NCBI GenBank assembly: GCA_021234155.1
Contig: JAJEKV010000100.1
Span: 970,116-1,034,115 of the forward strand
Direction: 5' to 3'
Length of the DNA: 64,000 nucleotides
Source of the DNA: Isoetes taiwanensis
Lineage: Eukaryota; Streptophyta; Lycopodiopsida; Isoetales; Isoetaceae
In this document: positions 1-57,516 of the stretch, one piece after another
Position numbering within the stretch: position 1 is the first letter of the stretch
How the letters are laid out: each line of letters starts with the position of its first letter
The notes under the pieces: generated by a model
Told to the model about the DNA's origin: nothing
What the model saw: only the letters and a program-made list of their open reading frames with translations
Database searches by the model: none
Translations under genes and position numbers: made by a program

Positions 1-62
1 GATCTTAGCCCTTCAAATTAGGGCGTGGTCCATTACTTGCACTAAAACATTATAATATAAGA
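1..62 (-). mobile_element. 5' end of a Helitron-like element running out of the window
   Basis: Read on the minus strand, position 62 begins TCTTATATTATAATGTT, directly after an A. This matches the 5' terminus of the complete copy at 54754. About 30 bases further in is the family's CCCTAATTTGAA(G)G segment. The element extends leftwards beyond the window, so only its first 62 bases are visible. Helitrons insert between A and T and begin with TC, which fits. The identification rests on matching the other copies here. Confidence 0.6.
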
Positions 63-1859: not shown

Positions 1860-3095
1860 CTTCCAATCAACGAAAACATATTGAAACAATTGACATAAAC
1901 ATACCTCATATTTTAGATTAATCTGTTTAAACTTCAACTCTTGCTTTGTGCCACATGATATTGTTCTGTAGAAATCAGATATTTGTGTAACAATTTGACC
2001 CGCAAGAAACACAAACATACCGACAGATTACTTTGCAAAAAAGAGATTAAACTACAAAATATCTTGAAAGGGGATGCAATGTGGCATGTCCACCAGCTAG
2101 CAAACATTTGGGCATAACTTGGAAATGCAAGATCCATTGCTCAAGCAAGAGTATCCATTGGAAAGCTTACAGGAAGCTCTAAAAATAAGTCTAGGTACAC
2201 ATCTTTCAAATTCCTACCGTATGTGTGTCAAATATGGCAAATTACATTTGCTGTTCTAATTTCACATCAGAGGACAAACATGGCGGTAACTCCAAAAAGA
2301 AAGCTCTATTGTCCGCACAACTACTCTAAACACATAACACATGCATATACAGGGATATACTTCCAATCAATGAAAACATATTGAAACAATTGACATAAAC
2401 ATACCTCATATTTTAGATTAATCTGTTTAAACTTCAACTCTTGCTTTGTGCCACATGATATTGTTCTGTAGAAATCAGATATTTGTGTAACAATTTGACC
2501 CGCAAGAAACACAAACATACCGACAGATTACTTTGCAAAAAGAGATTAAACTACAAAATATCTTGAAAGGGGATGCAATGTGGCATGTCCACCAGCTAGC
2601 AAACATTTGGGCATAACTTGCAAATGCAAGATCCATTGCTCAAGCAAGAGTATCCATTGGAAAGCTTACAGGAAGCTCTAAAAATAAGTCTAGGTACACA
2701 TCTTTCAAATTCCTACCGTATGTGTGTCAAATATGGCAAAATACATTTGCTGTTCTAATTTCACAGCAGAGGACAAACATGGCGGTAACTCCAAAAAGAA
2801 AGCTCTATTGTCCGCACAACTACTCTAAACACATAACACATGCATAACACATGCATATATGTTCACTATGTGGCATGTCCACCAGCTAACAGAGATTTGG
2901 GCATAACTTGCAAACGCAAAATCTATTTCTCAAGCAAGAATATCCATTAGAAAGCTTAATGGAAGCTCTAAAAATAAGTCTAGGTACATATCGTTCAAAT
3001 TCTTATCGTATATATGAGAAATATGGCCAAGTACATTTGCTGTTCTAACTCTACAGCAGAGTACTAAAACTCCAAAAAGAAAGCTCTATCATGAT
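1860..3095. repeat. Tandem triplication, unit ~500 bp (third copy partial)
   Basis: The segment 1860-2350 is repeated almost base for base at 2361-2845, an offset of 501. A partial and more diverged third copy is at about 2870-3095, beginning GTGGCATGTCCACCAGCTA. Copies one and two differ by only scattered substitutions, so that step is recent; the third copy is older. The unit has no recognisable coding content. The unit boundaries carry ACACATGCATA repeats. Confidence 0.85.
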
Positions 3096-4495: not shown

Positions 4496-5542
4496 AGGGC
4501 GGCACAGAAGTGAAATGAATCAATGGTACACGTCAGAGATTTTTTCCCCTATCGATGGCCCAGAATAAATTCTTAAATCTAACGGTCTAGAACAAAAGCC
4601 CCAAATAAAGGGGATTTAAATCTGGGCCGTCGATCTCGCACATTCGACGGCTACGGCGGCGACACCTCAATCTTTATACCCAAGGGGGGTGCTTGGGGTG
4701 GTTTGGCATGTTTTCATCTCAACCGTTGATCTCAAAAAATGGACGGCTGCGGCGGCGACACCAAAATCTCTAGAAATAAGGGGGGTGCTTATATAATTGT
4801 ATATATATATATATAAGGGATATACAAGTCTTTGTACTATGTAGGGCCTGTATGAGTTAGGGACTGTACAAATCCAACTAGAAGCCAAATACAGAGATAT
4901 ATCTCTTAGATTTTACTGGATTCTCAAAGATTCTCTTGATATTTCCATAAATTCCAGTTTCTATGTAGATCCTCCTATATTCTTTAAGATTCCATCAAGA
5001 TTCCCCTAAATTCTTAAAGATTCTCTTGTGATTCCTAAAGATTCTCTAAGATTCTCTTGAGATTCTTCTAAAATCTCAAAGATTCTATGGAGATTCCCCT
5101 AGATTCCCATAAATTACTGTAGATTCCATAAAATTCTAAGATTCCAAGAAGACTCTTAGAATTTGATCACATTGACTCCAACTGCGACAGAATGATGCCA
5201 AAGCATCACTCATTGAAAAGCTCTCGACGAGCGGAATTTAAAGATGTGGGCCTCACCTTCAGCCAACCCCTCTGCTGCAAGTTATGAGCCTTTGAAGGTC
5301 GTTATAAAAAAGGAAGCTTCCTAGAAAGTACATTTGTAAAATGCTTTTGCCACCTCATTACTTATTTATTTACGACGGTGCCACCTCACCTCCTTTAATA
5401 TAAAAAATTACAATTTAATTAAAAAAATAATGGTTAGGATTTTTCCTTCTCTTTTGGTCTAAAGACTAAAGATTGGCAACAACAAATCCACTCTATGAAG
5501 GATTGTGTGAAGCCGACTCTGCAAAACACACCAGTGTGAAAG

Positions 5543-7815
5543 ATTCCCCTAGATTTTTAAAATTCTACAGAGATTTTTCTAGATTTCCAAAAACTATTCC
5601 AAGATTCGCATACATTCCTCAAGATTCTATGTAGATTCCCTAGATTCATTCAATTTTGATAAAGATTCACCTAGATTCCCCTATATTATCGAAGATTTTA
5701 TGAAGATTCCCTTAGATTCCCCTAAATTCTCAAAGATTTTTCTAAGATTCCCATAGATTCTATTGAGATTGCCCTAGATTTCCAAAGATTGTCTCAAGAT
5801 TCACCTAGACTTCCCACGATTCTATGTAGATCCTCTTGAATTCCTTTAGATTCTATGAAGATTTCTTTATGTTCTATAAGATTTCATTAAAATTCCCCTA
5901 GATTCTTAAAGCTTCCTTTAGATCATATAAAAATTCCCTTAGATTCCATCAAGTTTCCCCTAGATTCTCAAAGATTCTATGTAGATTTTCTTAGATTCTT
6001 TATGATTCTATCAATATTCCCTGGATTCTCAAATATTCTATGAAGATTCCCCAAATTCCCATAAATTCTCTCGAGATTCCCAAAGATGCCCCAAGATTCC
6101 CCATGATTCTATGTAGATTCTCTTGGATTCCCTTGGTTTATATAAAGATTCCTTTAGGTTCTCCATGATTTCATCAAGACTCTCCTAGATTCCTAAAGAT
6201 TTTATGAAGATTCCTTTAGATCATAGAAAGATTCCCTTAGGTTCTCCAAAAATCCATGAAGATTCTCTTAGATTCTCTCAACATTCACATAGTTTAATCA
6301 AGATTCTATGTATATTTCCTAGATTCTCTAAGATTCTATCAAGATTCCCCTAAATTATCAAGTATTTCTATGAAGATTCCCTAGGTTTCCATAAATTCTC
6401 TTGAGATTCCCCTACATTCCTAAAGATGCCTCAAGCTTCACACAGATTCCCCATGGTTCTATGTAGATTATCTTGGATTCCCATAGATTCTATAAAGATT
6501 CCTCTAGATTCTCCACAATTCCATCAAGATTCCATTAGATTTCTAAAGATTCTATATAGATTCCTCTAGATTCTCCATGATTCCATCAAGATTCCCCTAG
6601 ATTTCCAAAGATTTTATGAAGATTCTTTTAGATTCTCTTAGATTCTATGAAGACTTTTTTAGGTTCTCCAAGATTTCATCAAGATTCCCAGGGATTCCCC
6701 TCGATTCTTAAAGATTTTATGAAGATTCCTTTAGATCATATGTAGAGTCCCTTATGCTCTCCAAGATTCCATCAAGATTCCCCTAGAATCTCAAAGATCC
6801 CATCAAGATTCCCTAATATTCTCTCAAGATTCACATAAATTCCCCAAGATTCTATGTAAATTGATCCTAAGAAGATTCCCCTAGATTCTCAAATATTCTA
6901 TGAAGATTCCCTTCGATATCCTTACGTCCTCTCGAAATTCCCCTAGATTTCTAGAGATTGCCCCAAGATTCACCTAGATTTTCCATGATTCTTTGTATTG
7001 TCTCTTGATTTCCTTCGATTTTATGAAGATTCCTATAGTCTTTCAAAGATTTCATCAAGATTCCTAAAGATTTTATTGAGATTCCTTTAGATTCCCTTAG
7101 ATACTATGAAGATTGAGATTCCATCAAGATTCCCATAGAATCTAAAAGATTCTATCGAGATTCCCCTAGATTTTTTAAATATTCTATGAAGATTCCCTAG
7201 GCTAAGATTCTATCAAGGTTCACCTAGATTCTCAAATATTCTATGAAGATTCCCTAGGCTTCCATAAATTCTCTCGAGATTCCCATAGATCCTCAAAGAT
7301 TGTCCCAAGATTCACCTAGATTTCCTACAATTTATGTAGATTTCCTGATTTCCTTGGGTTGTCTAACATTTCATGAAGATACCCCTAGATTCTTAAAGAT
7401 TCCATCGAGATTCCCCTACATTCCGAACTATTCTCTCAAGATTCATATAGATTCTCCAAGATTCTATTTAGATTCTCTAAGATGCTATAAAGATTCCGTT
7501 AGATTCTCATAGATCCTCTTAAGTTTCCCATAGTCCCTAAGGTTTTCTTGAGATTCCCTAAATTCCCAAAGACTATATCAAGATTCCTCTACATTCTCCA
7601 AGATTCTATGTAGATTCTCTTAGCTTTCTTGAGATATTATGAGGATTCCCCTAGATTCCCAAAGATTCTCCCAAGAATCCTGAAGATTCTCTTGAGATTC
7701 TTCAGAGTCCCTAAGGTTCTGTTGAGATTCCTCTAGATTCCTAAAGATCCCATGAAGGTTCCCCTAGATTCCCTCAAATTACCATAGATTTCGTAAACTT
7801 CTAAGATTCTAAGAA
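5543..7815. repeat. Degenerate AGATTCC tandem array, ~2.3 kb
   Basis: Dense, irregular repetition of AGATTCC/AGATTCT joined by CCTAGATTC, TCAAAGATT, CTATGAAGATT and CATCAAGATT variants, giving loose periods of roughly 12-25 bases. There is no fixed monomer length. The small open frames inside (such as 7300-7512) are products of the repeat. Shorter arrays of the same type lie at 4918-5165, 8417-8895, 18655-19435, 20168-20945 and 28218-29100, with an inverted one at 27690-28080. Confidence 0.85.
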
Positions 7816-9436
7816 GATTCTTAGAATCTGATCACATTAACTCCAATTGCATCGGAATAGTGTCAAAGCACCAGTCATTGGAAAGTTCTCGACGAGAAGG
7901 ATCCAATGGCGCAGGCCTCACCTTCATCCGACCTCTGTACTGAATGTTACGTGCCTTTGAATGCGATTAAGAAAAAGAATCTTCTTGGAAAGTGCATTCA
8001 TAAATGCTTTCTAACTTTTTATTAATGAGAGTGCCACCTCACCTCTTTTAAAAAAAAATATCAATTTAATATAAAAAGTTAAGGGTTAGGATTTATCCTC
8101 ACTTTTTGATCTAACGGTTGCAATCTGTTGCACCAAATCCACTTTTTGGCACCTTCCTTGCACCTTCCTCACAAAATTGAAGGGCTAAGATTTCTTCTCC
8201 CCTTTTGATCCAATGGCTTGGGGATGTGGTGCATGCTCCCATGCATGCCCATGCATGCCCCCCATGGAGATCCAATGGCTATGTGTTTACCACCTCATCT
8301 ATTTTCAAATGAACGGCCTAGATTGATTTGAATATATAGATATCTATTCCATGGGGGCATCCAAAGTAATATTATGATATATTATGATATATTTTTTATT
8401 TAATAAAAAATATTATATTTCCTTGGGTTGTCTAACATTTCATGAAGATACCCCTAGATTCTTAAAGATTCCATCGAGATTCCCCTACATTCCGAACTAT
8501 TCTCTCAAGATTCATATAGATTCTCCAAGATTCTATTTAGATTCTCTAAGATGCTATAAAGATTCCGTTAGATTCTCATAGATCCTCTTAAGTTTCCCAT
8601 AGTCCCTAAGGTTTTCTTGAGATTCCCTAAATTCCCAAAGACTATATCAAGATTCCTCTACATTCTCCAAGATTCTATGTAGATTCTCTTAGCTTTCTTG
8701 AGATATTATGAGGATTCCCCTAGATTCCCAAAGATTCTCCCAAGAATCCTGAAGATTCTCTTGAGATTCTTCAGAGTCCCTAAGGTTCTGTTGAGATTCC
8801 TCTAGATTCCTAAAGATCCCATGAAGATTCCCCTAGATTCCCTCAAATTACCATAGATTTCGTAAACTTCTAAGATTCTAAGAAGATTCTTAGAATCTGA
8901 TCACATTAACTCCAATTGCATCGGAATAGTGTCAAAGCACCAGTCATTGGAAAGTTCTCGACGAGAAGGATCCAATGGCGCAGGCCTCACCTTTATCCGA
9001 CCTCTGTACTGAATGTTACGTGCCTTTGAATGCGATTAAGAAAAAGAATCTTCTTGGAAAGTGCATTCATAAATGCTTTCTAACTTTTTATTAATGAGAG
9101 TGCCACCTCACCTCTTTTAAAAAAAAATATCAATTTAATATAAAAAGTTAAGGGTTAGGATTTATCCTCACTTTTTGATCTAACGGTTGCAATCTGTTGC
9201 ACCAAATCCACTTTTTGGCACCTTCCTTGCACCTTCCTCACAAAATTGAAGGGCTAGGAATCTAGGATTTCTTCTCCCCTTTTGATCCAATGGCTTGGGG
9301 ATGTGGTGCATGCCCCCATGCATGCCCCCCATGGAGATCCAATGGCTATGTGTTTACCACCTCATCTATTTTCAAATGAACGGCCTAGATTGATTTGAAT
9401 ATATAGATATCTATTCCATGGGGCATCCAAAGTAAT
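7348..9436. repeat. Direct duplication of ~1.02 kb (7348-8370 and 8417-9436)
   Basis: The two halves begin ATTTCCTTGGGTTGTC and end CATCCAAAGTAAT, at an offset of about 1069. They are nearly identical apart from small indels, for example in the ATGCATGCCC run. Each includes the end of an AGATTCC array, the TTAGAATCTGATCACATT junction and the full conserved tail module. An AT-rich linker (8371-8416) separates them. Near identity implies a recent event. Confidence 0.85.
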
Positions 9437-18594: not shown

Positions 18595-20014
18595 AGTGGT
18601 TCTACTATGAGGGACTGCACAAATTCGACCGGAAGCCAATGCAGAGTCATTCAATGAAGATTCTATAAGCATTTCCCTAGGCTCTTTATGAATCCTATGT
18701 TAACAAAGATTCTTTTTAGAATCTCCTAGATTTCCAAAGATTATGCCAAGATTCTCCAAGATTCTATAGAGATTCCCCTAGATTCTATGAAGATTTCCCT
18801 AGATTTCCCAAGATTCTATCAAGATTCTTAAAGATTTTATAAACATTCCCTTAATTCCCCTAGGTTCCCAAAGATTCTCTTGATATTCGTCTAGATTCCC
18901 AAAGATTATCCCAAGACTCCTCTAGATTCCCCAAAATTCTATGTACTTCTATTGAATTCTCCAAGATTTGATGAAGATTCTCCTAGATTCCTTTAGATTA
19001 TAGGAAAATTCTCCATGATTCTCCAAGATTCCATCATGATTTCACTAGATTCTCAAAGCTTTTAGAAAGATTCCTTTAGATTCCCAAAGATTCTCTTAAG
19101 ATTCCTCTATTCTCTAAGATCCTATGAAGATTCCCTTAGACTTGACATGATTCTATCAAGATTCCTCTAGATTCTTAAAGATTCCCTTAGATTCCCTTAA
19201 ATTCTCAAAGATTCTCTCGTGATTCCTATAGATTCCCGTTGATTTTCCAAAGATTCTCTTGAGATTCCCTTTGATTTCCAAGATTCTCTTGAGATTCCTT
19301 TAGATTCTCTAAGATTCTATGAAGATTCACCTAGATTCTCCAAGATTGCATCAGGATTCCTCTAGATTCTCCAAGTATTTATGAAGATTCCTTTAGATTC
19401 TCTGAGATTCCTATGGATTCCCTTAGAGTTTGATCACATTGGCTCCAACTACAACGGAACTGTGCCAAACCACCACTCATTGGAAAGCTCTCGATGAGAG
19501 GAGTCCAATGGCGTGGGTCCCACCTTCATCCGACCCCTCTACTGCAAGCTATGTACCCTTGAATGCGATTAAACAGAAGGAAGCTTCATAGAAAGTCCAC
19601 TCATAAATGCTTTGCCACCTCATTACCTTTTTTATTAATGATGAGGGTGACACCTCACCTCCTTTAAAAAAAAATCAATTTAATATTAAAAAGTCAATGG
19701 CTAAGATTTATGCTCACCTTTTGATCTAACGGTTAAGATCTGCTACACCAAAGTCACTTTAAAGGACCTTCCTTGCACCTTCCTCATAAAAAACCAAGGG
19801 CTAGGATTTATCCTCCCCTTTTGATCCAACGGTCCGGGGATGTGGTGCATGTGGTGCATGCCCCCATGCATGACCCATGCATGCCTCCATGCATGCCCAT
19901 AAGGAATGGATGGCTCGATCTTTCGCCACCTCCTTTGGACCCACCTTAAACGGGACGACATCCCAGGGCATGTAAGAATCAAACACATTATATAGAAAAA
20001 AGTTTATGATATAC

Positions 20015-20020
<6 letters not shown>
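18591..20020 (+). repeat. AGATTCC-family unit A (~1.43 kb)
   Basis: It starts TACAAGTGGTTCTACTATGA after a (TA)n run. It then carries an AGATTCC array (18655-19435), a TTTGATCACATTGG junction and a conserved tail. The tail includes TTTGCCACCTCATTACC, TTTTGATCTAACGG, TTTTGATCCAACGG, a run of ATGCATGCC variants and GGGCATGTAAGAATCAAAC. The unit ends at GATATACCTTTATATA. The next unit is almost identical. Confidence 0.85.

Positions 20021-20103
<83 letters not shown>
20021..20103. repeat. (TA)n microsatellite between the two units
   Basis: An almost pure TA dinucleotide run of about 80 bases. A similar run of about 45 bases precedes unit A (18546-18590), and shorter ones bound the other copies (4800-4817, 28133-28160, 29683-29703), so TA runs mark unit junctions in this family. 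Confidence 0.95.
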
Positions 20104-20105
<2 letters not shown>

Positions 20106-21530
20106 CAAGTGGTTCTACTATGAGGGACTGCACAAATTCGACCGGAAGCCAATGCAGAGTCATTCAATGAAGATTCTATAAGCATTTCCCTAGGCTCTTT
20201 ATGAATCCTATGTTAACAAAGATTCTTTTTAGAATCTCCTAGATTTCCAAAGATTATGCCAAGATTCTCCAAGATTCTATAGAGATTCCCCTAGATTCTA
20301 TGAAGATTTCCCTAGATTTCCCAAGATTCTATCAAGATTCTTAAAGATTTTATAAACATTCCCTTAATTCCCCTAGGTTCCCAAAGATTCTCTTGATATT
20401 CGTCTAGATTCCCAAAGATTATCCCAAGACTCCTCTAGATTCCCCAAAATTCTATGTACTTCTATTGAATTCTCCAAGATTTGATGAAGATTCTCCTAGA
20501 TTCCTTTAGATTATAGGAAAATTCTCCATGATTCTCCAAGATTCCATCATGATTTCACTAGATTCTCAAAGCTTTTAGAAAGATTCCTTTAGATTCCCAA
20601 AGATTCTCTTAAGATTCCTCTATTCTCTAAGATCCTATGAAGATTCCCTTAGACTTGACATGATTCTATCAAGATTCCTCTAGATTCTTAAAGATTCCCT
20701 TAGATTCCCTTAAATTCTCAAAGATTCTCTCGTGATTCCTATAGATTCCCGTTGATTTTCCAAAGATTCTCTTGAGATTCCCTTTGATTTCCAAGATTCT
20801 CTTGAGATTCCTTTAGATTCTCTAAGATTCTATGAAGATTCACCTAGATTCTCCAAGATTGCATCAGGATTCCTCTAGATTCTCCAAGTATTTATGAAGA
20901 TTCCTTTAGATTCTCTGAGATTCCTATGGATTCCCTTAGAGTTTGATCACATTGGCTCCAACTACAACGGAACTGTGCCAAACCACCACTCATTGGAAAG
21001 CTCTCGATGAGAGGAGTCCAATGGCGTGGGTCCCACCTTCATCCGGAGCCCCCTCTTTGCAAGCTATGTACCCTTGAATGCGATTAAACAGAAGGAAGCT
21101 TCATAGAAAGTCCACTCATAAATGCTTTGCCACCTCATTACCTTTTTTATTAATGATGAGGGTGACACCTCACCTCCTTTAAAAAAAAATCAATTTAATA
21201 TTAAAAAGTCAATGGCTAAGATTTATGCTCACCTTTTGATCTAACGGTTAAGATCTGCTACACCAAAGTCACTTTAAAGGACCTTCCTTGCACCTTCCTC
21301 ATAAAAAACCAAGGGCTAGGATTTATCCTCCCCTTTTGATCCAACGGTCCGGGGATGTGGTGCATGTGGTGCATGCCCCCATGCATGACCCATGCATGCC
21401 TCCATGCATGCCCATAAGGAATGGATGGCTCTGATGCTGCCACCTCACTGGACCCACCTTAAACGGACGACATCCGGGCATGTAAGAATCAAACACATTA
21501 TATAGAAAAGTTTATGATATACCTTTATAT
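20104..21530 (+). repeat. AGATTCC-family unit B, near-identical to unit A
   Basis: It repeats 18591-20020 at an offset of about 1513, with differences mainly near the tail (for example CCGGAGCCCCC for CCGACCCCT at about 21042, and a shorter CCACCTCACTGGACCC stretch). It is followed by a short TATATAACTGATATATATATATCAG inverted repeat that leads into the right TIR. Confidence 0.85.
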
Positions 21531-27686: not shown

Positions 27687-29703
27687 GGAACCTTGGAGAA
27701 TCTAGGAAAATCTTCATAGGATTTTAGAGATCTAAGAGAATTTACATAGAATCTTGGGTAATTTACAGGAATCTTGAGAGAATTGTTGGAATCTAGGGGA
27801 ATAAGGGAATCTTCATAAAATCTTTGAGAATATAGGGAATCCTGATGAAATCTTAGAGATTCTAGGGGAACCTTAGGGGAATCTTTATGGAATCTTGAGA
27901 AAATCTAGATATATCTTTCACGTTGGGTATGCTTTGTAGTGTCTTTATATAATCTAAGGAATACTTGCGATATCTTGGGGAATCTTTATAGATTCCTAGA
28001 AAACCTTGATTTTATAGAAACTGTCTTGATGGAATGTTGGTAAACTTGGAAATCTTATAGAAATTTTGGAAATCTATTCTTCCCAACGTACGTACATTCG
28101 ACTTCGTACACTCCCTCATAGTACAAAGACTTGTATATATATATATATATATATATATATACAAGTGGTTCTACTATGAGGGACTGCACAAATTCGACCG
28201 GAAGCCAATGCAAAGTCATTCAATGAAGATTCTATAAGCATTCCCCTAGATTCTTTATGATTCTATGAAGATTCCCCTAGATTCTCAAAGATTTTATGAA
28301 GATTCCCTTAGATCTCCTATGTTCACAAAGATTCTTTTTAGATTCTCCTAGATTTCCGAAGATTATGCCAAGATTCCTCAAAATTCTATGTAGATTCTCC
28401 AAGATTTTATCCCTAGATTCAGAGAAGTTCTCTTGATATTCTCATAGATTCCTCAAGATTTCCCAAGATTCTCCAAGATTCCCTCTAGATTCCCCAAGAT
28501 TTTATGTAATTCTATTGAATTCTCCAAGATTTGATGAAGATTCTCCTAGATTCCTTTAGATTATAGGAAAATTCTCCATGATTTTCATGATTTCACTAGA
28601 TTCTCAAAGCTTCTAAAAAGATTCCCTTAGATTCCTAAAGATTCTCTTAAGATTCCTCGAGATTCTCTAAGATCCTATGAAGATTCCCTTAGACTTTACA
28701 TGATTCCATCAAGATTCCTCTAGATTCTTAAAGATTCTATGAAGATTCCCTTGGATTCCCTTAATTTCTCAAAGATTCTCTCGTGATTCCTATAGATTCC
28801 CTTCGATTTTCCAAAGATTCTCTTGAGATTCCCTTTTATTCCCAAAGGTTCTCTTAAGATTCCCATAGATTCTATAAAGATTCCTCTAGATTCTCCAAGA
28901 TTGCATCAAGATTCCTCTAGATTCTCCACGTATTTATAAAGATTCCTTTAGATTCCCTCAGATTCCTATGGATTCCCTTTAGATTCCCTAAGATTCTCTT
29001 GAAATTCCTCTAGATTCTCTAAGATCTCTGATGATTCTCTAGATTCCTATAAATTACCATGAATTCTGTAAAACTCTAAGATTCCAAAAAGATTCTTAGT
29101 GTTCGATCACGTTGCCCGCAACTGCGACGAAATAGTGCCAAAGCACCACTCATTGGAAAGCTCTCAACGAGAGGAATCCAATGGCGTGGGTCCCACCTTT
29201 ATCCGACCCCTCTACCGCAAGCTACGTGCCTTTGAAGGCGATTAAACAAAAGGAAGCTTCCCAGAAAGTGTAATCATAAATGTTTTGCCACCTCATTACC
29301 TTTTTATTAATGAGGGTGCCACCTCACCTCCTTTAAATAAAAAAAATCAATTTAATATTAAAAAGTTAATGGCTAGGATTTATGCTCACTTTTTGATCCA
29401 ACGGCCAAGATCTGCTACACCAAATCTACTTTAAGGGACCTTCCTTGCACCTTCCTTACAAAAAATCAAGGGCTAGGATTTATCCTCCCCTTTCGATCCA
29501 ACGGTCCAGAGATGTGGTGCATGCCCCCATGCACGACCCATGCATGCCTCCATGCATGCCCATAAGGAATGGATGGCCATGATGCTGCCACCTCACTGGC
29601 CCCACTTTAAATGGACGGCATTCGGGCATGTAAGAATCAAACACATGATATACCAAAGTTTATGATATACCTTTATATATATAACTGATATATATATATA
29701 TAT
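27687..29703. mobile_element. AGATTCC-family insertion: inverted partial copy plus unit C
   Basis: 27687-28130 is an AGATTCC array in reverse orientation (GGAATCTAGGG phrasing) that ends in the reverse of the TACAAGTCTTTGTACTAT start module. A (TA)n run follows, then unit C (28160-29680) in the forward direction with the same start, array, TCGATCACGTTG junction and tail as units A and B but visibly more diverged. The right junction (TATATATACAAG/GTAGCTACC) lies inside the phosphatase exon of the neighbouring gene. No outer TIRs are present. Confidence 0.7.
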
Positions 29704-35898: not shown

Positions 35899-37778
35899 CT
35901 AGTAATGGTGCCCAGCGTTGCTGGGCATAAGTTGAGAGCCTGTAAATGCTTTGGGATGCAGTGAGAAAAGCCCTATCCCTTTCCCTTTCCCTTTCCCTTT
36001 TGCTCTATCCCGCATTTCATTTTTTCTTATTTTCTCTACTTTTTTTTTTCTTTTCCTTTTTTTTCTCGTCTTTCTCACATGTTTCCTTGTTTTCCCATCC
36101 CTTTCCTTCCCCCTTCCCTGTTCCCGATAACCTTTTTCCCTTCCCTTTTGCTCCTTTCTCCACCTTTCCCTCTTCTCTTTTTTCTTTGCCCTTTTCCCTT
36201 CCCCTTTCTCTTTTTTTATGCCTTCTCTTTTCCCCACCCTTTTTCCATGTCTTCCTTTTTTCTCAACCTTTGACTCTTTCGCCCTTTTCCATGCCTATTT
36301 TCCCTTCTCTTTTCCTCCTTTTCCCACTCTTTTCCTCCCTTTTTTGTGTGCCCTTTTCCCTTCCATTTTTCTTTTCTCCCTCCCGTTTTCCATGTCCTTT
36401 TTACCTTCCCTTTTTCCATCTCCTCACCCTTTCCCTTTTCCATGTTCCCTTTTTCTCTTCCCCTTTTCCATTTTCCTCATTTCCTTTTTCCCTTGCCTCT
36501 CTCTCTTTCCCCCCTTTTCCATTCTTTTTTCTTTTCTATTTCCCTTTTCCCATGCCCTTTTTCCCACCCTTTTCTTCTTTCTATTTTTTTCGTGCTTCCT
36601 TTTCCTCCTTTTCCCACCCTTCCCCTCTTCCCGTGCAATTTTCCTTTCTTTCAACCCTTCCTTTTTCTTTTCTCTTTTCCTTTCCTCATGTCCTTTTTCC
36701 CTTTCCCTCCCCTCCATCACTCCCTGCTTCCCTTTCCCTTTCCCTTTTTTCCCGTTTCCTTTTCTTGATGGAATTTTTTCTTTCCGTTTTCCTCCTTTGC
36801 CGATCCTTTTCCTGTGCACTTTTTCCCTTCCTTTCCTTTTCCTTTTCCCTTTTTCCATGCCTTTTACACATTTGTTTTATTCTCTTATTTCCTATACCCA
36901 TTTTCCTCTTTTCCCCACCCTTTCTCTCTTGCCCCTTTTTTTTTTCCCCTTTTTTCTTTTTTTCCTTTCTTCACCATTTTCCTCTTCCCTTTTCTCTCAT
37001 GCCCTCCCCCCCTTCCCTTTTCTCGTTTCCCTCTTTCTTTTTCCTTGTGACCTTTACCTAGGTTCCCTTTCCCCCTTTCCCTTTCCTTTTTCTTTCTTCT
37101 CAGTTTCCCTTTTTCTATGCCCCTTTTCTTTTCCCCTCTCCCCATCCTTTTCTTGTTCCCCTTGTCCCTTCTCTTTTCCTCATTTTTTCAACCTTTCACT
37201 CTTCCCCTTTTCTTGATGCATTTTTTTCCTTCCCTTTCCCTCTTTTTTTTTTCCCTTTTCCTATGCCATTTATCCCTTCCTTTTTCCTCTTTCCTCAACG
37301 CTTCTCTTTTTCCCCCTTTTCCCATGCTCCTTCCTTTTCCCATGCTTTTTTTCTCCTCCCCTTTTCCATGCTTTTTTTCTCCTTCATTTTCTCCTTTTTT
37401 CAACCTTTTCCTCTTTCCTTTTTTTTTTCATGCCCTTTCCATTTACCTTTTCCACTTTATCTCTTCCTCCTTCCCTTGTGCCCTTTTCCCAGGTTCCCTT
37501 TCCCTTTTTCGTTTTCCATGCCTTTTTCTCTTCTTTTATCCCCACCCTTTTCCCTTTTCCCCATGCCTTTTTGCCCTTCACATTCTCTCTTTCCACTTCC
37601 CTTTTCCTTTTCCCCCTTTTCATTTACCCTTTCCCCTTAAGAGATCGAAGCATGACCAATCACAGTGTTGGTAAGTCGTGCAATAAATCTAGGCCTTCGG
37701 ATGCATCCAGATGATCTCGGCCATTCAAACTAGGGCTCGATGCACTATAGAGTTACGGTATAACATTATAATATAAAA
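35899..37778 (-). mobile_element. Helitron-like element, polypurine core, complete
   Basis: The 3' end is CTAG (35902-35899 on the minus strand), followed by T. The hairpin GCCCAGCAACGCTGGGC (35926-35910) lies 7 bases inside it, exactly the layout of Helitron 3' ends. The other end (37778) begins TTTTATATTATAATGTTATA after an A, one change from the family's TC start. Next to the 5' end is the conserved leader with ATTGGTCATGCT. Between about 35985 and 37640 the plus strand is a nearly pure pyrimidine tract of CCCTTTTCC-like units. No Rep/helicase is encoded, so it is non-autonomous. Reading frames across the tract are artefacts. Confidence 0.75.
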
Positions 37779-38053: not shown

Positions 38054-39000
38054 CACGGATTAGGAATAGTCACCATGACCACTAGTGTTAAGGGGAAAGG
38101 GAAAAAGAAAAAAAAAAAAGGAGGACAAAAGGGAAAAAGGGAAGGACAAAAAGGCATGAGGAAAAGAGAAAGAGGAAAAAGGTGAGGAAAAGAAAAATTG
38201 GCATCGAAAAAGGGAAAGAGAAAGGGAAAACAAGAGGGGAGAGAGGAAAGGGAAGGGTAAAACGGCAATGAGAAAGGGGAAGAGGGAAAAGATGGGAAAA
38301 AGAGGAAAATGGAAGGGAAAACAATGGAGAGAAGGGAAGGGAAGGGAAAAAAATACATGGGAAAAGGAGAAAGGGAAAGGAAAAAGAAAAACGGCGGCGG
38401 AAAAAGAGGGGGGAGGGGGGATAAAAGAGATAAAAAGCATGGGTGGAGAAAGGAGGAAAAGAGACACATGACAAGGTTGGAGAAAGTTAAACAGAAAAAA
38501 TGCATGGAAAAGGGGAAAGAAAACAAAAAAGGGTGGAAAAGAAAGGGAAAAAGGGCAGGGGGAAAAGAGGAAGGGCTGGAAACGAATGAAAAAGGAAGGA
38601 AAAGGAAAAAGAAAAAGAGAAGCAGAAAGGAGGAAACATAAGGGAAAAAAGGCACGAGGAAAAAGAGAGAGAAATAGAAAAAGAGAAGGGGAAAGGGGGA
38701 TTAAAGAAGAGGAGAAAGGAGAAGAGCATGGGGATAAGGACAAAATATGACACATAAAAAAAAGTGGCAAAAAATAAATGGAAAAAAATGCATGGGAAAA
38801 AGGAAAGGGAAAAAGAAAAAAATAGAGGAAAAGAGGAAGGGCGACAAAAGGATGAAAAAAGAAGGGAAGAAGCCCATCATAAAAAGGAGAAAGGAAGGGA
38901 AGGATAGGGGAAAGGGGGTTAAAAGAAGAGAAAAGGGAAAAAGAAAACATGTGAAGAAAATAAGAAAAAAGGAAAAAGAAGGTGCGTAGGAAAATAAGAT
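38054..39000 (+). repeat. Polypurine tract, incomplete Helitron-family copy
   Basis: About 0.9 kb of almost pure purines (GGGAAAAGG-type units) on the plus strand. It is preceded by a weakly preserved stretch (CACCATGACCACTAGTG) that may be the worn end of the family's 5' leader. It stops where the next copy's leader begins, so two copies appear to stand in tandem. No terminal hairpin is present. Confidence 0.6.
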
Positions 39001-39009
39001 CAAATGTAT

Positions 39010-40707
39010 CAAATTCTAATTTGAATGATTGAGACCATCTGATTGTATCAGAAAACCTAGATTTATCGCAAGACTTTCCACCATTGTGACTGGTCATGCT
39101 TTAATATCGTAAGGAGAAAAGGAAAGGGAAAATGGAAGAGGAAAGGGAAAAAGGGAAGGGAAAAGAAACACAAGAAAAGGAGAAGAGGGAAAGCGGAACA
39201 TGAAAAGAGAAAACGGGACGAGAAAAAGAGAAGGATGAAGAAAGAGAAAAATGGAAGGAATAATGACATCACAAAAGGGAAAGAGAAAAGAAAAAGAGGG
39301 GAAAAAAAGAAGGGAAAAGGACACCAGGAAAAGAGGAAGAGAGAAAAGGTGAGGAAAAAAAGGAAAATAGAAAGAGGAAAAGGATGAGAAAAAAGGGCAT
39401 GGGATATAGAAAAGAGAAAGGGAAAAGAAAAATGGAGGGGTTTAAGGGATAAAGAGAAGGTAACAAAGGCATGATGATGGCCTTGGTGGTGGCCAGGTCC
39501 TGCTGAACGATGGCCTTGGTGGATTGAAAATCTCATTGAGCTTTCACAAAATAATGTTAATAATGTTGAAGGATTATTTTGCACCGAGTGTAAAGTCTTT
39601 GTAGACCACCTTCATATTCCTCATGCTATCGATGGTGGGATTGGGATAGTTACGATTTTCAAAAGTTTGAAGGGATTTCCAATGTTGAATGCAGTTGAAG
39701 TGGCGGAAGAAGTTGATTTAGATTATGTGGCAATGCATTCACTCCATGAGGGTGGAAATGAGATTGACTACGTTTACATATGGTTACCTGAACCTCTTCT
39801 ACAAGAGCGAAGAGGAGGTTGTGAGTATTGTAGCAGAATTGTGAGCTCGTTGAACAAGTTTTATTGTTCCATCTATTGTAAACATCAAGAAATATTAAAT
39901 GATGATAGTGACAGTGACAGTGACTGAAGACATCGAATAAGAAGAAAGATACATAATTTCTTCTTGTTGTTGAACCCTTTGTTTGCTGCAATGTAAAGGT
40001 TTTACTCGTTTTCAACTCCAGTCTGCCTTTCTGTAAAAAAAAACCTCCCCCCCTCGGAAACACACACCCAAAAGGGCCCGGCAACAGACTCCTCAAATCT
40101 TCTTGCATCGCCTAATTAACTTCTCAAACTATAACGCCTTTGCTGTAAGGAAGTTCTACATTATTTGGCACAGCTTAGAAGTTTGACAGTTTGACAGGGA
40201 AACATCCATCTAGCTCTTCTGCTGCCATAAATTGGTAGACAATCTCAAGAGTTGGAGCCTAAAGATGCCGTATGGAAAAAGGCTAATTCTTATATCCAAG
40301 GCACCTCTTTTGCTGCAGATTTGCTCGAAACACAGAAACAGATATATGAAACTGTGATGTCAAATACCGAAAAGGGAAAGGGGGACCTCCGAGGCAAGAC
40401 TAAGACTTCATTGCCTGTTTCTGGAACCTAGATATGAATATCAAAAATGTAGGGAAGGGTGGGAAAAGAGGAAAAGGGGCGCACGAAAAAAGTGGGAAAA
40501 ATGGGAAGAGAAAGAGGAAAAGAAAAATAAGGGAGAAGGAAATAGAAAAAGGAAAAAAAACGTGTAGGGAAACAAGGAAAAGAGAAAAGAGAAAAAGGAG
40601 GTGTATAAGGAAAAGAAAAAAGCGAGATAGAGCAAAAGGCAAAGGGAAGGAAAAATAATGTCGAATGCAACGTCTTATAGCCCAGCAACGATGGGTTTGG
40701 TTTCTAG
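39010..40707 (+). mobile_element. Helitron-like element carrying a PLATZ-like gene fragment
   Basis: The leader starts with TTCTAATTTGAATGATTGAG and includes ATTTATCGCAAGACTTTCC and GGTCATGCTTTAATAT, matching the copy at 54754. A purine tract follows (39113-39460). The 3' end has GCCCAGCAACGATGGG then 8 bases and CTAG (40704-40707), a slightly degraded form of the family terminus. Its outermost 5' bases are missing or replaced. Between tract and terminus lies unrelated sequence including a PLATZ-like coding block (39474-39927) and a second small purine tract (40440-40660). Confidence 0.65.
39474..39927 (+). pseudogene. PLATZ-like zinc-binding protein fragment
   Basis: The frame is open from two TGA codons at about 39475 and reads WPWWIENLIEL, LFCTECKVFVDHLHIPHAI, VEVAEEVDLDYVAM, DYVYIWLPEP and GGCEYCSRIVSSLNKFYCSI with YCKH, ending in DDSDSDSD and a stop. 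This follows the PLATZ order: a PPWL-like start, a C-x2-C plus H cluster, the V-x-E-x3-D segment and the closing C-x2-C-x11-C-x3-C pattern. PLATZ proteins are plant DNA-binding repressors. The first zinc cluster is shortened and no ATG leads the block. It could be a captured 3' exon or a divergent family member. Its place inside a Helitron-like element supports capture. Confidence 0.5.
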
Positions 40708-54753: not shown

Positions 54754-56423
54754 TCTTATATTATAATGTTATAGCATAAGTATGTCATGAATGAAACCCT
54801 AATTTGGATGGTTGAGATCATCCGATTGCATTCGAAGGTCGAGATTTATCGCACGACTTCCCTCCACCATGATTGGCCATGCTCTAATGTCTGAAGAGGG
54901 AAGGAAAAAGGAAAAGGGAAAAGGAAAGAAAAGGGAAAGGGAAAGGAAAAGGTAAAAGAAAGGGGGAGGAGGAGGGAGTGAAAAGGAACACTGGGAAAGG
55001 GGAAGAGTAAAAAGGTGGGGAAAGGAGGAAAAGGGAGGAAATAAAGGCAAAGTGAAAGGCAAAAAAGCCACGGATAAAAGGGAAAAGGAAATAGAAAATA
55101 GCACAAAAAAGAGAAAGAAAAAGTAAGAGAGAAAATAAAGGAAAAAATGACACTATGAAAAGGAGAAGAGGGAAAGGGTGAGGACAGGAGTAAAAGGGAA
55201 GGAAAAAAGGGGATGAGGAAAAGGGTAGAGAGAAGGGAAGGGAAAAGGAAAAGGAAAAAGGAAAGGAAAATGGAAAGGGAAAAATGGGAGAGGAGGAGGG
55301 AGCAAAAAGGGACAGTGGGAAAGGGGGAGAGAAAAAAGGTGGGGAAAGGAGAAAAAAGGAAGGGAAAAAGGACACGAAAAAAAAAAAGGAAAGAGAAAAA
55401 GGGAGGAGAGAAGGGATGGAAAGGGTAAAAGGAAAAAGTGAGGGGAGGGGCAAAAGGGAAAAAGGGCATGGGGAAAAGAGGAAGAGAAAAGAAGGAGAGA
55501 AGCGGAAAAAAGGAAGAGAAAGGAGGGAGGAAAAGGGAAAAAAGTGGAAGCAAATGGAAAAAGGCAAAAGGGAAAAAACGGGAGGTAAAATGGGAAAATA
55601 GAAAGGGGAGGTGAATAAAAAGGAAGAGCAAAATAGAAAAAGAAAAAGAGAAGGAAAAAAGGAAAAAGGAGGGGGAGGAGGAAAAAGGTGAAGAAAGGGG
55701 AAAAGAGGAGCGAAAAAAGAGCATGAAAAAATAGAAGAGAAAAGGGACATGGTAAAAAAGGGAAGAGGGAAAGGGTGAGGAAAGGGGAAAACCGAAGGAA
55801 AAATGGACATGGAAAAGGGAAAGGGAAAAGAGGGAAAAAAAAAGGAGGGGGAAAAGGAAGGGAAAAAGGGCACTAGAAAAAAAGGAAGAATGGAAGAATT
55901 TGGGCAAAAGAGGAAAAGGGAAGGGAAAAATGGGAAAAAAGAAAAGGTGGGGAGAAGGAAAGGGAAAAGGGAAAAGGGAAAGGAAAGGGGAAAGCAGAAA
56001 GGAAAACTTAGAAAGAAGGGCACGAGGAAAAGGGGAAGAGGAAAATGGGAAAAGAGAGGGGGGAAAGGGCACAAGGAAAGGGAAAAAGGGCAACCACAAA
56101 TTGGAGAAAATGGAAGGGAAAAATAGAAAAGGAAAAATGGGGAAGCAGAAACAAAAAAGAGAAAAAGAGGAAATGGAATAATGGAAAAAAAAAGTAAATT
56201 GAAAAATGTAAAAAGGGAAAAGGGGCAAGGGGGAAATAGGAAAAAAAAAATAGTAGACAAAGGCAAAATGAAAAAGGAAAACGGAAAAGATAAGGGGAAG
56301 TGCGAAATGTGGTCGAATGCTCTTGATTATCCAATTTTAAAAACAAGAATCCATTTAACAATTGCTCCAGTATGTCATTCACAGTTTCTAGCTATGCCCA
56401 GCAACGCTGGGCACTGTTACTAG
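54754..56423 (+). mobile_element. Helitron-like element, complete, polypurine core
   Basis: The 5' end is A/TCTTATATTATAATGTTATA. The leader contains ACCCTAATTTGGATGGTTGA and ATTTATCGCACGACTTCC and ends ATTGGCCATGCTCTAATGTC. The core (about 54895-56300) is almost only purines on this strand. The 3' end has GCCCAGCAACGCTGGGC (56396-56412), seven bases, then CTAG/T at 56420-56423. This is the best-preserved copy and defines the family. No Rep/helicase or other gene is present. Long minus-strand frames of 460 codons across the core are compositional artefacts. Confidence 0.8.
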
Positions 56424-56469: not shown

Positions 56470-57516
56470 ATGCTGGGCGATGGCAGTCTCGGAATGGCCA
56501 TGGGCATTCTGCCTCCTCTTCATTCTCAGCCCCTTCAGCCCACTTCTCAACTCCAGCTTCAAATCCAAAACGACGAACCCCAAATGGAATCCCCTGCAAG
56601 TGGGGCTGTGGAAGATAGCGGAGTTTCGACCCCTATTCTTTACGTCAGTGATGGACAGAGAAAAGAGGACCGTTTGCCTCAGTGGGGTTATCATGAAACG
56701 AAAGATCTGATCTCTATTAGGGCAGAACTCGAGTTGAGTTTTACCCAGACAAAACGTAACAAAACTCTCTGGGAGCTCATCTCTAGAAAGATGAAGGAAA
56801 AAGGTTTTCGCCGAAGTGCTGACCAGTGTAAATGCAAGTGGAAAAATTTGGTGAACAGATATAAGGTACGTTGTTCTCTTTGCTAAAATTAGGTTTAGAC
56901 TTGTTCATTTCTTTAGATCTCAGATATTAGACAGGATCATATGCAGGGAAAAGAGATTTCCGATTCTGATAACGGAAGACAATGTCCATTCTTTGAAGAG
57001 CTGGATGAAATTTTCACGAATCGTGTAAAAAATATGGACAGGGTTTTGTTAGAATCTGAAGGGAATAGGCACAAAAAGAAAGAGAAGAAGTTAAAAGCTG
57101 GAGATAATATGATGGTAAAGTTTTCAGATGATGATACTGAAGATGAAGAGGATGATGGGGATGATAGTGAAGATGATCAGATACATAAGAAAAAAAAGAG
57201 GAAAATAGAAGGTGATGCCCTTAAGGGGGTTTACAGGGCAAATAATATGCAGGAAGTATTGGAGGAATTTTTTCATCAGCAGAAGCTTGTGGAAGAACAA
57301 TGGCGTGAGGCGTTAGAGAGAAGGTATCAAGAACGGCAACTGCGAGAACAGCAGTGGAGGGAGTCAATGCACAGACTGGAACAGGAAAGAATGATGAGGG
57401 AGCAGGCATGGTGGGAAAGACAGGAACAGAGACGCGCACAAGCAGAATTAAGATCTCAGAAATGGGATGAACTCCTTGCTGCTGTTATCAACAAAATTGT
57501 GCATGAAGAAGGTTGA
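56470..57516 (+). CDS. Trihelix transcription factor, GT-1/GT-3-like
   Basis: A nuclear DNA-binding protein of 321 residues in two exons: 56470-56865 and 56947-57516. The 81-bp intron starts GTACGT, ends GCAG and keeps phase 0. The trihelix domain spans about residues 70-135: WGYHETKDLISIRAELELSF, LWELISRKMKEKGFRRSADQ, then QCKCKWKNLVNRYK across to FFEELDEIF. An acidic run (about 175-195), a KKKKRK nuclear signal and a long glutamate/arginine coiled coil (HQQKLVEEQWREALERRYQE onward) follow, as in GT-3-type factors. The family binds GT elements in light- and stress-responsive promoters. The frame is intact with an ATG start. The start codon is only 46 bp from a Helitron 3' end, so any promoter must lie within or beyond that element. 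Confidence 0.88.

Follow-up and report, generated by a model that had tools for sequence, protein, structure and literature searches.

A Helitron family of Isoetes taiwanensis with a polypurine core in some of its subfamilies

Described Helitrons and the copies in the window

Plant Helitrons have 5' TC and 3' CTAG ends, a hairpin about 11 nt from the 3' end and an insertion site between A and T; these hallmarks, checked against the available sections of PMC10741241, are the same in the family reported here, as are the absence of a target duplication (two empty sites) and the occurrence of relatives with matches to Rep and to a PIF1-type helicase. What sets this family apart from plant Helitrons is a polypurine core, mostly of 1.2-1.9 kb, present in about a third of the members sampled.

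As for repeats within non-autonomous elements, the closest systems are from animals. The Cg_HINE non-autonomous Helentrons of the Pacific oyster contain central satellite-like repeats, some of them from independent events; in the available sections of PMC7492417 they are non-autonomous rolling-circle elements with a central tandem-repeat array, like those studied here, and they differ in being animal Helentrons with satellite-like clusters, whereas here the ends are CTAG, the target is A|T and the core is a degenerate purine tract confined to one strand. The DINE-1-like Helitrons of the fly Calliphora (protosatellites, GTCY-rich repeats, <1 kb, subterminal inverted repeats) likewise have short repeats in non-autonomous elements and a hairpin near the 3' end, and the excerpts of PMC3630058 that were available make no mention of a kilobase purine tract. 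A helitron of Drosophila miranda carries a GA-rich MSL recognition motif, recruited for dosage compensation; from the accessible part of PMC6417741, the likeness is the purine-rich motif, and the difference is that it is a motif and not a kilobase core. Tandem-repeat cores are, then, known from animal Helentrons; a limited literature search, confined to papers and based on partial texts, returned neither a description of a Helitron with a polypurine core nor anything equivalent to this core.

The window, namely the whole stretch of 64,000 nucleotides that was analysed, contains these features:

54754..56423, + strand: copy A, a non-autonomous Helitron; both ends intact (A|TC at 5', hairpin and CTAG|T at 3'), core polypurine
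54754..54892, + strand: leader of copy A (~140 nt), with 72-86% identity to nine other aligned polypurine leaders
54893..56317, + strand: polypurine tract of copy A, purine-rich on the TC...CTAG strand, with up to 60 nt of uninterrupted purine
56396..56412, + strand: terminal hairpin of copy A, GCCCAGC-AAC-GCTGGGC (GCCCAGCAACGCTGGGC), with one extra flanking pair in the predicted fold
56420..56423, + strand: 3' terminus of copy A, CTAG, then T; 7 nt between hairpin and CTAG
35899..37778, - strand: copy B, a non-autonomous Helitron with a polypurine core (polypyrimidine on the + strand)
35964..37647, - strand: polypurine tract of copy B, 90.0% purine
35910..35926, - strand: terminal hairpin of copy B
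about 39003..40707, + strand: copy C, a degenerate relative without intact ends
38071..39009, + strand: a further polypurine tract adjoining copy C, with no ends recognised, perhaps the remnant of another copy
1..62, - strand: copy D, an intact A|TCTTATATTATAATG 5' end and leader only, from a family member running out of the window

An earlier note on this DNA had ascribed one architecture to four loci, with an A/TC 5' end and a GCCCAGC-N3-GCTGGGC hairpin before CTAG and then T. The description is accurate for copy A, which starts with A|TCTTATATTATAATG and has a core with 91.2% purine, and also for copy B, with the reservation that its 5' end reads TT and not TC; the 3' end of B has the same exact hairpin as A, 7 nt, and CTAG|T. 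Copy D agrees with it in the A/TC 5' end, the one end that the window contains. Copy C, which the note had placed at 39010-40707, is degenerate: its leader is without the first ~30 nt, TCTTATATTATAATG is absent, the hairpin has 2 mismatches, CTAG is followed by C, and the tract is broken by a gene fragment (a non-purine insert at about 39468-40440). Allowing up to 3 mismatches, the hairpin pattern has 4 matches in the window, 2 of them exact; 100 shuffles gave a mean of 0.79 and a largest value of 6.

Regarding the insert of copy C, its open frame (39468-40440, + strand, limits approximate) is PLATZ-like, its score of 17.4 bits falling short of the Pfam cut-off of 25. At G000:C1060 there is a frame 96% identical to it, and the preceding 400 bases match the window at 96.5%, so that the combination of tract and gene fragment exists in no fewer than two places. 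Of 27 genomic matches, several end near residue 49-50, a sign that the copy in the window may have no intron. Close to copy A, an open frame with a Myb/SANT-like domain (56470-56886; PF13837, E 3.3e-19) starts 46 bp past the 3' end, and copy A may lie in the promoter or 5' UTR of this frame.

Ends, target sites and candidate partner elements

A genome search, a step that the earlier note had proposed with longer end sequences, returned 6,167 exact hairpin sites in the 1.66-Gb genome of the window, with none for the reversed pattern, and 2,905 places where the 16-nt 5' end is matched exactly, with 13 for the reversed control. Three samples were drawn: 20 loci picked by the hairpin alone among its first 33 listed sites (L005-L024); a consecutive run of 20 exact 5' ends (L030-L049), where A and TC were part of the search pattern and which, being preselected in this respect, were not counted in the test of the A-preceded TC end; and eight loci picked by likeness to the leader of copy B (L050-L057).

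At the 3' side, CTAG follows the hairpin in 18 of the 20 hairpin-picked loci, at 7 nt in 17 and at 6 nt in one, and the next base is T in all 18; the two misses are L005 and L014. The same CTAG and T occur in 6/6 of L051-L056, L050 and L057 being without a readable 3' end. At the 5' side, A precedes the end in 9/9 aligned polypurine copies (C excluded) and 8 of these start with TC, the exception being B with TT; A was also found in 8/8 of L050-L057, for which it sat in a search pattern tolerating 3 mismatches. Alignment placed a window-like leader upstream of the hairpin in 13/20 hairpin-picked loci. The hairpin stem, with a fold predicted in both A and B, stops 11 nt before their 3' end, and there are no terminal inverted repeats, since TCTTATATTATAATG does not recur in inverted form at the 3' end (...ACTGTTACTAG).

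As for the target, 18 insertions (A, B and those of 16 other loci) were examined by joining their flanks and comparing them with the DNA fetched for this study; the 5' ends taken for L006, L007 and L008, with 1-3 mismatches, may be chance matches, the right flank of L018 was taken 6 nt too early, and no empty site was used from these four. Two clear empty sites reading AT, as the earlier note had anticipated, emerged, both with the exact A|T and no duplication: that of the polypurine insertion L009, found in L011 (ACATTTA|TTAAG, 81% over 457 columns), and that of the non-purine insertion L017, found in L016 (CATTAA|TTCCC, 72% over 495 columns). For most of the 18 insertions, no empty site was found in the DNA compared; more distant copies of the same target repeats also align across the junction, and some junctions are not clean. 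L010 goes against the rule, since a direct repeat of ~400 bp, 87% identical, abuts both ends of the element (oriented 5731-6128 and 8011-8381); it shows long identical runs with clustered differences, and it may be a tandem target, the reading that we prefer, an insertion-linked duplication or an effect of the assembly. Helentrons and HINE elements have ends and a target other than CTAG and A|T; the family differs from them in this respect, having CTAG ends and an A|T target.

The search for a Rep/helicase element with the same ends, also advised in the earlier note, led to two elements, L012 and L028, both of them candidates. In L012, family ends 7.65 kb apart (the 5' end with 1 mismatch) enclose matches above the cut-off to Helitron_like_N, PIF1 and Pif1_2B, in a coding region spread over several frames. 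L028 has a Rep open frame of 903 aa (Helitron_like_N, E 7.8e-62), with the exact family GCCCAGCAACGCTGGGC-ACCGTTA-CTAG|T downstream and, upstream, a 5' end with 3 mismatches, which could be a chance match; these ends are 7.4 kb apart. The L028 element was partly read in separate stretches (with L058/L059), and its helicase is represented by a Pif1_2B match below the cut-off (22.1 vs 23.9 bits). Across the genome, PF14214 matched above the cut-off in 150 of 150 scored candidates, taken from 1,813 first-look candidates. The L012 and L028 elements are plausible candidates for autonomous relatives, or mobilisers, of the family.

The ends, the target site and the empty sites show that A and B belong, as non-autonomous elements, to a large Helitron family. 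The Helitron assignment of the earlier note is in this way upheld, by the TC/CTAG ends, the hairpin, the A|T target, the two empty sites and the Rep elements with family ends.

The polypurine core and its lineages

The earlier note had also regarded the family as built around the purine tract. The core is real and is copied with the element; it belongs to certain subfamilies and was found in 14 of the 40 sampled loci. Among L005-L024, the tract lies directly before the hairpin in six (L009, L010, L011, L013, L018 and L020); the seventh, L019, has the tract after its 5' end and may be composite because a second 5' end, with 3 mismatches, occurs further on. L021, with a purine stretch of 187 bp only, and L023, with unassigned stretches, were not counted as polypurine. 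Seven members were identified in L030-L049 (L031, L032, L035, L040, L045, L046 and L048). Of the 26 loci without the core, 18 were profiled, and in these no 200-bp window was >70% or <32% purine.

Sixteen tracts were compared: they are 88.8-91.2% purine, with 51-55% A and 36-40% G, and are interrupted by ~10% pyrimidines; as cut, 15 of them measure 1.2-1.9 kb, and that of L048 is 843 nt. Tracts were looked for on both strands in L005-L024 and L030-L049, and the purines are on the TC...CTAG strand in 24/24 polypurine copies for which at least one end could be read (A, B, seven of L005-L024, seven of L030-L049 and the eight L050-L057); these copies stem from few lineages and are therefore not 24 independent observations.

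Some further features of the tracts and their surroundings were recorded. The pyrimidine strand holds long open frames, at 54846-56266 (minus) and 35946-37216 (plus) in the window and in the tracts of L009-L020, including two of 460 aa in A and up to 558 codons between stops in L010; they seem to arise from the base composition, and annotation might mistake them for genes. In L023, a polypurine segment of 316 bp (oriented 2728-3043) has a pure purine run of 117 nt, and two shorter segments lie at 8338-8452 and 8899-9113. The left flank of L018 (oriented about 5422-5757) contains a family leader in inverted orientation together with a short run of pyrimidines, which would fit a second copy placed head-to-head.

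The alignment of full copies recommended in the earlier note was done on 13 copies with the B leader at different places (B, L009-L011, L045 and L050-L057, the last eight picked by leader similarity). Identity averages 0.930 over the tract and 0.951 over the leader, the tail values being set aside because L050 and L057 have no readable 3' end; the value for the tract shows that the core has been copied along with the element. Between subfamilies, the leader is 70-89% identical (C left out), and identity in the tract, computed without C and L019, is 46-59%, to be compared with the 0.41-0.44 per site expected by chance from base composition alone.

Smith-Waterman scores, set against those of the reversed sequence, point to two groups of tracts. 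In lineage 1, which comprises A, B and their relatives, oriented motifs are shared, as in the pairs A-L020 (334/183) and B-L018 (388/155), with weaker signals for B-L013 (239/202) and B-L020 (173/143). Lineage 2 consists of L032, L035 and L046, which share their tract (2,726 for L035-L046 and 1,645 for L035-L032). Between the lineages, most scores equal the control (L035-B 336/317, L035-A 331/325, L035-L020 228/242, L032-L020 169/167); the pairs L032-A (282/222) and L032-B (237/169) leave some doubt. These values suggest two tract lineages with little or no detectable homology. A leader tree of 35 rows gave 3 changes of core state (bootstrap 3-4), and a single polypurine clade was not rejected (p-AU 0.202); L006, L039 and L042 were left out of this tree, and L007, L015, L016, L021 and L023 gave no leader. 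Given the doubtful pairs and this p-AU value, two independent origins of the core are likely, not proved.

Internal repeats are visible in several tracts: hexamer arrays of the (AGGAAA)n type in L040 and L019, 6- and 13-nt arrays in L035 and L046, the latter with a 41-nt one as well, and a 161-nt unit in L013; the arrays of copies A and B are short and weaker. An autocorrelation peak at 6 nt was found in 9/9 tracts, with peaks at 7, 13, 14 and 20 nt in most, and in the 13 B-leader copies there are 28.5 gap runs per kb in the tract vs 13.4 in the leader. Arrays, periodicity and gap runs fit a process of slippage and tandem duplication inside the element, followed by decay; the similarity between the tracts of most subfamilies is too low for this growth to be followed stepwise.

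Probable growth, strand and possible roles of the core

The explanation that we regard as probable for the data as a whole is that these Helitrons are non-autonomous and are moved in trans, and that their core, having grown by slippage of repeats, was amplified with them as a passenger. The Rep/helicase of longer relatives with the same ends would most likely mobilise A- and B-type copies in trans. From the ends and from what is known of Helitron biology, a nick at the 5' TC end would be followed by displacement of the TC...CTAG strand, by a stop at the terminal hairpin and CTAG, and by insertion between A and T. The core, a degenerate repeat of G- and A-runs, would have grown inside the element by slippage and tandem duplication; it was then copied along with it, and its repeats would have decayed afterwards. 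Slippage accounts for the repeats; it does not explain that both tract lineages carry their purines on the transferred strand, an agreement that, for two lineages, has a 1 in 2 probability by chance.

The strand preference makes it necessary to consider the core as an adaptation by composition, where cores would have arisen at least twice from unrelated sequence, with the purines on the transferred strand each time, since an unfoldable strand was favoured; we hold this to be rather unlikely. An unstructured transferred strand would be more easily displaced, kept single-stranded and replicated, and the purines would have been selected in the source elements, a proposal to which we give an equally low probability. 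Predicted folding with DNA parameters is in keeping with it: six tracts average between -0.06 and -1.4 kcal/mol per 200 nt, six non-purine members lie at -15 to -17 kcal/mol per 200 nt, and the terminal 60 nt of A and B are predicted at about -10 kcal/mol, chiefly from the hairpin. With the purines on the transferred strand, this strand is therefore almost free of predicted structure apart from the terminal hairpin, an arrangement that would be favourable to rolling-circle transposition; the data can be accounted for without selection. Also in favour are the strand agreement in all readable copies and the likeness in composition of the two lineages, which, with little or no detectable homology between them, do not differ in purine content (0.89-0.91) or in their proportions of A and G. 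On the other hand, the pyrimidine strand of the tracts is predicted to be as unstructured as the purine strand, and fold alone therefore does not explain the strand preference; the 24 copies stem from few lineages, with two tract lineages distinguishable; 26 of the 40 sampled loci manage without a long core; and a non-purine sister subfamily is about as numerous, with 1,111 vs 1,447 first-look candidates, both loose counts. Changes within the tract point in no clear direction, as transitions and transversions number 381/165 in the tract vs 22/17 in the leader (Fisher p 0.11), with no clear excess of purine-keeping changes. Per base-copy in the 13 B-leader copies, pyrimidine-to-purine changes (40/1,941) are more frequent than the reverse (125/17,906), an excess that would favour the keeping of purines and that misalignment in a purine-rich tract can also give.

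Two related ideas were considered and set aside. Purifying selection on the purines after insertion is not claimed, given the lack of a clear transition/transversion difference between tract and leader and the ambiguity of the pyrimidine-to-purine excess; a higher success of the polypurine members is unsupported by the two loose counts.

It is also improbable, to about the same degree as adaptation, that the core was captured from a polypurine locus of the host and then spread, instead of growing inside the element. Gene fragments can be captured by plant Helitrons, according to the sections of PMC10741241 available, and copy C has a gene-like fragment; the existence of two tract lineages and the L023 segment at 2728-3043, outside any assigned copy, would agree with capture as well. 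Yet tandem arrays in several tracts point to growth in place, and 10 of the 12 polypurine segments of at least 300 bp in the window and L005-L024 (254 kb) are within family copies, a census biased toward the family because the loci were picked by the hairpin; the remaining two are the L023 segment and 38071-39009, adjoining copy C. The earlier note had further described the core as a triplex-capable mirror repeat. That the core works through triplex (H-DNA) formed by purine mirror repeats is very improbable: pure purine runs reach 60 nt in A, 75 nt in L020 and 83 nt in L019, and mirror repeats exceed all 20 dinucleotide shuffles in six of the 16 tracts (L019, L031, L032, L035, L040 and L046), of which L019, L035, L040 and L046 hold strong short-period arrays, but the other ten are within the shuffle range, including A (10 mirror repeats; shuffles 5.5, sd 3.2, max 12) and B (3; shuffles 5.2, sd 3.2), and pyrimidines interrupt the tracts at ~10%. 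As a general feature of the family, a mirror-repeat or triplex core is not supported by the counts in A and B, and neither, for these two copies, is this part of the note. Finally, ordinary microsatellite or satellite stretches lying by chance near similar ends, with no single mobile unit, would match the low complexity of the tracts and their poor alignment between subfamilies; this is hardly credible, in that copies of the B subfamily at separate places, each with flanks of its own, combine leader, tract and tail, and the whole unit is missing from the empty site of the polypurine insertion L009.

Should the core be a passenger, the family would be a remarkable example of how Helitrons can distribute kilobase polypurine DNA over a large genome, in very roughly a thousand polypurine copies (7/20 sampled 5' ends, extrapolated to the 2,905 exact ends); nearby genes, and the annotation of genes, may be affected. 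Should it have been selected, this would show that the secondary structure of the transferred strand limits Helitron transposition.

The window also contains a second degenerate repeat type, of a different family. It is of the AAGATTCC type, with periods of 10, 21 and 31 nt, and occupies 4920-9100, 18706-19422, 20219-20935 and 28226-29050; the later blocks have (TA)n and ACAAGTGGTTCTACTATGAGGGACTGCACAAATTCGACCGGAAGCCAATG before them. A direct duplication with a shift of ~1.5 kb, at about 18600-21415, contains a AAGATTCC block and its 3' region, and a tandem duplication of 499 bp, 98% matching, lies at 1860-2846.
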